A stretch of DNA of 47,410 nt from Bacillota bacterium (GTDB lineage Bacteria > Bacillota > Bacilli > Alicyclobacillales > SLC66). Below, piece after piece: positions 6,732 to 12,827 of the stretch. The position numbers and the translations under genes are program-made. Location: positions 1 to 47,410 of the forward strand of contig JAJYOE010000008.1 of the NCBI GenBank assembly GCA_021785975.1. The letters run 5' to 3'. Within the stretch, counting starts at the first letter, position 1; each line of letters starts with the position of its first letter. Below the pieces are notes generated by a model. It was given only the letters and a program-made list of their open reading frames with translations, was not told the origin of the DNA and searched no databases.

Positions 6732-7364
6732 TTGAGCGGAATGGGACCTATTTCAACACCAGTGAAGGACCCTGAATTAGTTCGTGTCCGTCGCGAACAG
6801 ATCGTGATGGCGGCAACCAAACTTTTTGCCGAAAAAGGTTATCACAAAACCACCACACGGGAAATTGCACGTGAAAGTGGTTTGGGGACAGGTACTTTAT
6901 ACGAATACGTCAATTCCAAAGAGGATATTTTGTATCTGGTTTGCGACATGATTCACACACAGGTGGAAGATCGACTGAGAATGGTCACTTCACAGGGTAA
7001 TACGCTGGTAGAGAGAATGCCGCTTATTTTTAATGGCTTTTTTAGGGTAATGGATGAATTGCAAGAATGGGTACTGCTTATCTATCAAGAAACCAAATCA
7101 CTTCCCGGAAATTATATGGAATATGTGCTTGCCAGGGAAGAAAAAATCACGGAATTTTTTGCGGAACTGATACGCGCAGGAATGGAAGACGGTTCGTTTG
7201 TCATTGAACCGGAAGTGGTATCTTTGATGGCCCATAATATTGTGGTATTGGGGCAGATGTGGGCTTTCCGGCGCTGGTCGTTACAGAAGAAGTATTCTCT
7301 TGAAACATTTATCGAGACTCAGACGTCATTGCTGATGAGAGAACTGGTGGCACAAGAAAAATAA
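6732..7364 (+). CDS. TetR/AcrR-family transcriptional regulator
   Basis: This is a 210-aa repressor with an N-terminal TetR HTH ([28 protein letters not shown], then [14 protein letters not shown]) and a C-terminal helical ligand domain. I chose TTG 6732 because AAGGAGGAG lies 5 nt upstream; the track start at 6666 overlaps the promoter. It is 13 nt before icmF, so the two are co-transcribed. Known TetR regulators of Bacillales fatty-acid degradation (FadR/YsiA) sense long-chain acyl-CoA. Proximity to icmF and fadNAE suggests this one senses an acyl-CoA and controls both, which is inference. Confidence 0.9.
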
Positions 7365-10683: not shown

Positions 10684-11523
10684 ATGTCGCTCTTGCAGAC
10701 ACTGATTTTCGCCCTTGTACAAGGCATTACGGAATTATTCCCCATTAGCAGTGTGGGCCATGGGGTATTGATTCCATTTCTTTTTCATTGGCCCAACATT
10801 CAGTCGAGCCCCTCATTTTTACCGTATATCGTCATGTTGCATGTGGGGACCGCTGTGGCACTGCTCATCTTTTTTATCGTGGACTGGCTGGTGTTTTTGC
10901 GCGCTGTATTTGTACCGTCCAAAGCGCCTAGCAAGCACGAGGCGAGGATGGCTCGAAAAGAGTTTTTCCTGATTATTGTTGCTACCATCCCGGCAGTGAT
11001 TTTGGGAGGACTTTTTACTCATAAATTTGAAACACTTTTTGGGAATCCCCGTGTGGCGATGATTTTTTTGATTGTCAACGGCATCATTTTGCTTTACGGA
11101 GACCGTTTAATGAAACGCGCGGGCAGAAGGGAAGCGCATGATTTATCCTATGGACAAGCTTTGGTCATAGGCATTTTGCAGTCATTTGCCCTGATTCCGG
11201 GATTTTCAAGATCCGGTATGTCGATGATTGGCGGACTTGTGTACGGTCTTCGCTACGAAGCAGCGGCAAGATTCAGCTTTTTGCTCGCCACTCCGATCAT
11301 TCTCGGGGCGGCAGTAAAGGAACTTCCCAAGCTTCATCATGCGGCTCACGGCATGATGACAATGGCCCTGATTGGCGGGCTGGTTGCAGGAATTGCCGCG
11401 CTATTTAGCACTTGGTTTTTGATGCGATACTTTAAGACCAGAGAAGTGAGAGCACTACGTCCGTTTGGGATTTACTGTCTGGTAGTAGGCGTAGGAACGT
11501 TGATTCTCAGCTTTTTTATCTAA
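10684..11523 (+). CDS. uppP: Undecaprenyl-diphosphatase UppP (BacA)
   Basis: This integral membrane enzyme dephosphorylates undecaprenyl pyrophosphate to recycle the lipid carrier of peptidoglycan synthesis, and overexpression gives bacitracin resistance. The 279-aa length fits the family. Both active-site motifs are present: QGITELFPISSVGHG (Glu17, His26) and PGFSRSGMS. About eight membrane segments are visible. ATG 10684 follows TAGGAGG. It sits 45 nt after icmF but has its own extended -10, so functional linkage to icmF is doubtful. Confidence 0.95.
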   Translation: MSLLQTLIFALVQGITELFPISSVGHGVLIPFLFHWPNIQSSPSFLPYIVMLHVGTAVALLIFFIVDWLVFLRAVFVPSKAPSKHEARMARKEFFLIIVATIPAVILGGLFTHKFETLFGNPRVAMIFLIVNGIILLYGDRLMKRAGRREAHDLSYGQALVIGILQSFALIPGFSRSGMSMIGGLVYGLRYEAAARFSFLLATPIILGAAVKELPKLHHAAHGMMTMALIGGLVAGIAALFSTWFLMRYFKTREVRALRPFGIYCLVVGVGTLILSFFI

Positions 11524-11559
11524 TATATTCGCCTATATTTAAGAACGGTGGATAAAAAT

Positions 11560-11636
11560 ACTGCCTGATTGCAAACCTCTAACCAAGGGGGGATGATATG
11601 CGAACCTTGGGATGGTTGAATATGCAATCAGGCAGT
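11560..11636 (+). promoter_or_regulatory. Long inverted repeat enclosing the ribosome site and start of the MFS gene
   Basis: ACTGCCTGATTGCA (11560-11573) is the perfect reverse complement of TGCAATCAGGCAGT (11623-11636), which lies inside the coding sequence. Between them AACC/GGTT (11574-11577 with 11614-11617) and CCAAGG/CCTTGG (11583-11588 with 11605-11610) can also pair. That gives about 24 bp with the start codon 11598 in the apical loop and part of the GGGGGG ribosome site in the inner stem. There is no T-run, so it is not a normal terminator. Translational control is an inference. Confidence 0.6.
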
Positions 11637-12827
11637 TCGCTTTTGATCTGGCTGAATTCATTGTTTTTGGCGGCGATGGCGCTGTCCGGAACATTTATCA
11701 ACATTTACATATTTCGTGTAGACCACTCGGTTGCCGCCATTGGGCAATTTAATTTTTTTGAATATATTGCCTATCCCTTTGCTTTTTTGGCAGCAGGCAA
11801 AGCGTCTTCTTTTGTCAAGGAAATATGGTTTTTAAGGGCTGGCGTGGTCTTGCTCACCGGTTTCTTTCTATGGATTATCATGCAGGGGAATGCGCCAATG
11901 GTGGACCTCTCTCTGTTGGGTATTTTATACGGGTTTGGGCAAGGGATTTATTGGTTTGGATTCAATATCCTCAGTTTTGATTGGACCACATGGGAAACGA
12001 GACCTTCTTTTCAAGGGACGCTAGGTTTTGCCGGGTCTATTGCCACTACTGCGTTTCCGTTTGTGGCTGGTATTCTTATTTCAAAGGCAAAAAATTTTTC
12101 TGGATACCATCTCGTCTTCATTATTTCTTTGATGCTATTTGCGTTCTTATTGCTTCTCACTGCGAAAGCAACGCACAGTCGCAAAGAGAAAACATATCAT
12201 CTTCGAGAAGGATTTCGCTTTCGGGCTGACCCGGATTGGTTTCGTTTGTGGGTAGGGACCATCGCGTTTGGTCTTCGTGAAGGGGTCTATGCGTTTTTTA
12301 TCAGTATCGTGGTGTATTCCTTGACAAAAAGTGAAGAATTTTATGGCATGTTTAGCTTGGTCATAGGCACTTTATCGTTTTGTGCGTTTTTTTTAGCTGG
12401 TAGGCTTCAAAAATGGAAAGTTTCAAAAAAAGCTCTACTATTCGTTGCGGCAACGTTACTGGGTGTGCTGTCGCTACTTTGGCTGGTGTTTGAGAACATC
12501 AGGACGCTATGGGTGTTTGGCGTATTTACTGCGTTATTTTTTCCGGTTTTTATGGTTCCTTATCAAACGATATTATTAAACGAAATTGAAGAGACGAGGC
12601 GTTCTATTCAACATCGCACCGCGTATTTCATCAGCCGTGAGGTTGCATTGGCATTAGGGCGATTGACGGGGGTGGGATTGATTTGGTGGGTGGCCGCGAA
12701 TTATAGGTGGCCACAAGTCATTCACACCTACAGTTTGATCGGGCTTGGCTTTATTATCACTGCTTATGCGATCAGAAAGGTTGAATTTAAAACCAAAAAG
12801 GAACCATCCATCAGTGGGGCAGACTGA
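11598..12827 (+). CDS. MFS transporter (possibly YqgE-type)
   Basis: This 409-aa integral membrane protein has about 12 hydrophobic segments and a major facilitator pattern: IYIFRVDHSVAAIGQFNFFEYIAYP near the N-terminus, a central basic loop (HSRKEKTYHLREGF), then a second six-helix half beginning GTIAFGLREGVYAFF. It resembles Bacillales MFS proteins of the uncharacterised YqgE type. No substrate can be named. ATG 11598 follows AAGGGGGGATGAT. The start region is enclosed by a long inverted repeat, described separately, which may control its translation. Confidence 0.85.
   Translation: MRTLGWLNMQSGSSLLIWLNSLFLAAMALSGTFINIYIFRVDHSVAAIGQFNFFEYIAYPFAFLAAGKASSFVKEIWFLRAGVVLLTGFFLWIIMQGNAPMVDLSLLGILYGFGQGIYWFGFNILSFDWTTWETRPSFQGTLGFAGSIATTAFPFVAGILISKAKNFSGYHLVFIISLMLFAFLLLLTAKATHSRKEKTYHLREGFRFRADPDWFRLWVGTIAFGLREGVYAFFISIVVYSLTKSEEFYGMFSLVIGTLSFCAFFLAGRLQKWKVSKKALLFVAATLLGVLSLLWLVFENIRTLWVFGVFTALFFPVFMVPYQTILLNEIEETRRSIQHRTAYFISREVALALGRLTGVGLIWWVAANYRWPQVIHTYSLIGLGFIITAYAIRKVEFKTKKEPSISGAD

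Follow-up and report, generated by a model that had tools for sequence, protein, structure and literature searches.

A hairpin at the start of an uppP-linked MFS transporter gene may restrain its translation

The MFS transporter gene that follows uppP begins within a long predicted hairpin. We propose, in a judgment poised between acceptance and doubt, that this hairpin is a cis-acting RNA structure that would clamp the initiation region of the uppP-linked gene into a loop and restrain ribosome starts. Because the fold persists in relatives, in one genus with quite different letters, a genuine brake on protein synthesis is probable. We infer that the hairpin would form in cells and lower translation, and that selection may act on the level of expression. 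The elements discussed here lie on the forward strand of the window, which is the whole analysed stretch of 47,410 nucleotides.

10684..11523, + strand: uppP (undecaprenyl-diphosphate phosphatase), upstream neighbour in 16/16 family genomes with the MFS gene
11550..11559, + strand: GGATAAAAAT, the window's copy of a 9-mer (GGATAAAAT) that precedes the structured leader in most genomes of the family; it may be a -10 element or an RNA/DNA motif
11560..11573, + strand: 5' arm of the basal helix, ACTGCCTGATTGCA, in the 5' UTR; same helix in L002-L004
11574..11577, + strand: 5' half of the middle helix, AACC, with its partner GGTT at 11614-11617 (MFE fold)
11583..11588, + strand: 5' half of the apical helix, CCAAGG, reaching into the 5' end of the Shine-Dalgarno (SD) sequence (MFE fold)
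11585..11592, + strand: Shine-Dalgarno-like AAGGGGGG, one half paired in the stem, the other in the loop (direct sequence reading)
11598..12827, + strand: MFS transporter gene (409 aa; Pfam MFS_1), with its start codon in the predicted apical loop
11605..11610, + strand: 3' half of the apical helix, CCTTGG, MFS codons 3-5 (MFE fold)
11614..11617, + strand: 3' half of the middle helix, GGTT (MFE fold)
11623..11636, + strand: 3' arm of the basal helix, TGCAATCAGGCAGT, in MFS gene codons 9-13

A sequence-only reading had described a hairpin around the ribosome site and start codon of an MFS gene. The gene is real, as judged from its Pfam match, and lies directly after uppP in every family genome that possesses it. 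No match to the protein was found in the PDB. In L002 (genome G001), an in-frame TAG ends the reading frame at residue 372 of 409. The geometry of the hairpin agrees with the description: the 14-bp arms are 100% complementary with 49 nt between them, the 3' arm falls on the named codons, both inner helices are present in the MFE fold, and ATG 11598 is located in the apical loop of that fold. Folding of positions 11540-11660 yields an MFE of -41.7 kcal/mol, compared with a shuffle mean of -26.4 (z -4.58; 0 of 200 shuffles as low). On the long transcript, the predicted helix encloses the initiation region in the manner of phage T4 gene e. The hairpin encloses the ribosome site and start codon, as described; of AAGGGGGG, only the GGGG half lies in the apical loop, and AAGG is paired in the apical stem. 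As also stated, no T-run follows position 11636 on direct reading, so the stem and T-run of an intrinsic attenuator are not combined here. Intrinsic attenuation from uppP, one of the functions suggested earlier, is therefore excluded at 11560-11636; the gap in another genus (g7) does contain a terminator. An out-of-frame 8-codon ORF starting at ATG 11593 is present in L002 and L004 and was dropped as a candidate because it is lost in L003.

The rarity of the structure was assessed in 357 kb of the same genome, taken as stretches, from which 300 gene starts were sampled. Each start was given a score for the helix that its 5' UTR can form with the initial 60 bases of coding sequence. The helix at 11598 is the top of the 300 (score 21; next 15.5; mean 8.7), and the ORF of the runner-up is antisense to a thioredoxin-like reading frame. 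Ranked by expected UTR-CDS pairs, the MFS gene is second of the 300. Perfect inverted repeats of at least 12 bp are rare in the 357 kb. Those of at least 14 bp with a short gap are few, mostly intergenic and terminator-like; only one other overlaps a called ORF start, sitting in the preceding gap with a terminator-like appearance. By our own estimate, a 14-bp exact repeat within 110 nt is expected about 0.14 times per 357 kb and therefore about 0.02 times per window, which bears out the earlier assessment of well under once.

The pairing is conserved in close relatives, the point on which the sequence-only reading had staked its proposal. Within the genus of the window (g1, L001-L004, where L001 is the window's locus), the hairpin is kept in 4/4 genomes; loci matched on the minus strand were reverse-complemented before comparison. 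The other three genomes carry the MFS gene after uppP with 82, 63 and 83% identity. In L003, where UTR identity is 75%, the hairpin is kept as GACTGCCCG/CGGGCAGTT and CATACCAAG/CTTGGTATG. One compensated pair in g1 changes from U-A to C-G, with a synonymous TCA to TCG change on the coding side that is matched in the UTR, and a second flips from A-U to U-A. Compensatory change in orthologous 5' regions is thus seen in these two pairs and in the different stem letters of a second genus, but the count of doubly changed pairs in g1 is reached in 104 of 500 shuffles, a weak control with four sequences, and covariation inside g1 alone is weak. Pairing in g1 falls from 92% to 43% or less when the partners are slid. 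When L001 was mutated at random by the observed numbers of changes, equal pairing was kept in 2.3, 2.9 and 4.4% of trials, one mutually non-independent value for each relative. High leader identity and conserved early codons are common among the genes of the window.

In the second genus (g4, L007 and L011), both genomes show the two-storey layout of g1 with different stem letters. The basal and apical helices surround the SD and start codon, and their 3' arms occupy +7..+44, in the same early codons. The folds reach -51 and -53 kcal/mol. A 13-residue N-terminus, ahead of the first conserved membrane segment, is common to g4 and g1. UTR-CDS pairing in L007 and L011 exceeds that of all 300 sampled starts of the window's genome, and against this sample every g1 and g4 genome ranks within the top 2%. 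The two genera are placed apart in a combined uppP and MFS tree; the layout is therefore either old and remodelled elsewhere, or it evolved twice.

The core of the ribosome-binding site (RBS, -20..+13) has an opening cost of 12.5 kcal/mol in L001, which is average for the genome (mean 11.6). Opening of the region -35..+19 costs 27.6-37.2 kcal/mol in the six g1 and g4 genomes compared with a mean of 17.7, placing them in the top 4%. The basal clamp leaves the core RBS uncovered, and only wider footprints are unusually closed. Since the wider region is costly to open though the core is average, we take the hairpin, with moderate confidence, to restrain initiation. The cis RNA hairpin would close the initiation region of the MFS gene into a clamped loop, and access of the 30S subunit to the wider footprint (approximately -35 to +19) would be hindered, lowering initiation. 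Read-through mRNA from uppP would be subject to this restraint, as possibly would the MFS gene's own mRNA.

Among known systems, the hairpin comes closest to the inhibitory initiation-region hairpins of the phage T4 genes e, soc, 49 and I-TevI (PMC3014915). In common with these, a helix encloses the SD and/or AUG and a possible promoter element is located at the 5' strand. Unlike the T4 hairpins, the present one serves a bacterial chromosomal transporter gene, its promoter is putative, a start at that promoter in L001 would remove only part of the 5' arm, and the start codon lies in an open apical loop. In the ISPpu9 transposase mRNA, a 5' UTR structure has been suggested to mask the RBS and reduce translation, with relief by an antisense sRNA (PMC8450116). 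The MFS leader resembles it in having a structure at the RBS with a proposed lowering of translation, but the gene is not a mobile element and has no known sRNA. Translational riboswitches and RNA thermometers likewise hold the RBS in a structured leader; the MFS leader differs from them in having no conserved aptamer or Rfam match and in that modelling up to 75 °C does not melt it.

It is unlikely that the hairpin is a true switch, opened or locked by a metabolite, protein or sRNA. The conserved structure at the initiation region would suit such a switch, as would L013 (g3), where the SD/AUG can pair in either of two mutually exclusive stems. However, an aptamer-like sequence common across genera was not found, and Rfam covariance models run at permissive E-values on the window and 16 family loci gave chance matches only, none of them relevant. 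The metabolite switch considered in the sequence-only reading therefore corresponds to no riboswitch family in Rfam. Its protein-controlled version does not hold for CsrA, which is absent from 18/18 family genomes while control genomes gave the expected result; a CsrA-controlled leader was thus rejected. A temperature switch is improbable, as the predicted UTR-CDS pairs decrease only from 35.8 at 37 °C to 28.1 at 75 °C (model only), leaving about 28 of 36 where a thermometer would be marginally stable and would open within a physiological range. We regard as very unlikely a role in mRNA stability or processing, be it as a 5' hairpin against RNase J or as an RNase III site that separates the uppP and MFS messages. 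Such an element would account for a long helix that lies close to a possible 5' end and between two genes that probably form an operon, but it requires neither the enclosure of the start codon nor a 3' arm in the early codons of two genera. Equally little weight is given to a functionless inverted repeat arisen by chance or hitch-hiking: the genomes are few, the covariation in g1 is weak and leaders in the genus are generally conserved, yet 11598 is the best of 300 starts, the structure is kept throughout g1 beyond the expectation from random change, and the layout recurs in a second genus with other stem letters.

The 9-mer allows a further explanation, which we also consider improbable, namely transcript-specific insulation in the style of T4 gene e. 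Here, the uppP read-through mRNA, with the complete hairpin on it, would be silent, while mRNA from an internal promoter, with GGATAAAAT as its -10 element, would start inside the 5' arm and be translated. GGATAAAAT or a close form precedes the leader structure in 13/16 genomes, standing at its 5' foot, and in T4 gene e, late promoters are found within the DNA that encodes the 5' strand (PMC3014915). In L010 (g2), uppP is followed immediately by a terminator, with GGATAAAAT beyond it, and the MFS gene there therefore needs its own promoter. With a start assumed 7 nt after the 9-mer, the basal helix of L003 is predicted to vanish entirely, and opening the RBS becomes cheaper in L009 (from 22 to 12) and L015 (from 21 to 11). 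Insulation fits g9, part of g3 and L003. The sequence of the window fits only partly: with the same assumed start, L001, L002 and L004 retain at least 9 basal pairs and the apical stem, so the opening cost in L001 is unchanged (12.5 before and after). Moreover, no conserved -35 hexamer was found near GGATAAAAT among the family loci, no consensus promoter was found in the g7, g5 and g2 gaps, and in g5 the presumed start precedes the whole stem. Across 864 kb of DNA from the family, the pattern GG[AG]TAA[AG]A[AT] has 8 intergenic matches before genes, 5 of which are the uppP-MFS locus, making GGATAAAAT nearly locus-specific among intergenic sites. Whole-genome counts of the pattern hardly differ from the reversed-pattern control in G005 and exceed it moderately in G001, and the intergenic matches form no clear regulon among the loci listed. 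On these figures, GGATAAAAT was rejected as a general promoter class.

In the remaining genera, the gap between uppP and the MFS gene is often structured otherwise, with SD-pairing stems, multi-stem leaders or terminators. L009 has an SD-pairing stem. In L014 and L016 (1375-1480), a stem of about 18 bp includes in its 3' arm the SD and what is probably the start codon, and TTCTTTTTTTT, which is coding sequence, comes next, possibly making a combined terminator and SD block; the RBS opening cost in these loci is higher than in every sampled gene of their genus. Multi-stem leaders are found in L012, L013 and L015. In g7 (L005, L006 and L008), a strong intrinsic terminator at approximately 1320-1420 in gene orientation, between GGATAAAAT and the MFS SD and immediately ahead of the latter, suggests transcription attenuation. 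No strong UTR-CDS hairpin was found in g2 and g3. ACAGCTACACACATTGAT, located just after GGATAAAATCC, is identical in three species (L012, L013 and L015) with otherwise different leaders, and is possibly an undescribed RNA motif.

The differences in architecture among genera (start-codon loop, SD stem, terminator) suggest that what is selected is the outcome, a restrained expression of the transporter, rather than a single ligand-binding fold. A family-wide extension of the proposed restraint is doubtful and we offer it tentatively: the uppP-linked MFS gene would be held down throughout by repeatedly replaced kinds of leader, whether a start-codon loop clamp, an SD stem or a terminator, and the adjacent locus-specific 9-mer would mark a shared, undescribed control input. 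If true, this would be a clean natural example of a leader that goes on restraining one gene although its structure is exchanged from genus to genus, one arm lying within coding sequence. It would likewise suggest that over-expression of the transporter is costly and that the transporter is tied to uppP, a gene of the undecaprenyl-phosphate cycle.

The start of uppP has a UTR-CDS helix of its own, which is milder and was not taken as a related element. In L013 and L015, an 11-bp helix, GAGTCTGCGTG/CATGCAGACTC, pairs the region just 5' of a TACAAT box with uppP codons 3-7. The RBS opening costs of uppP in these two loci are very high (28.8 and 23.5 kcal/mol, respectively). Elsewhere in the genome of the window, a hairpin AATCCCCCTTTC/GAAAGGGGGATT at L033:7016-7056 lies directly 5' of a 69-aa ORF (7062-7271).
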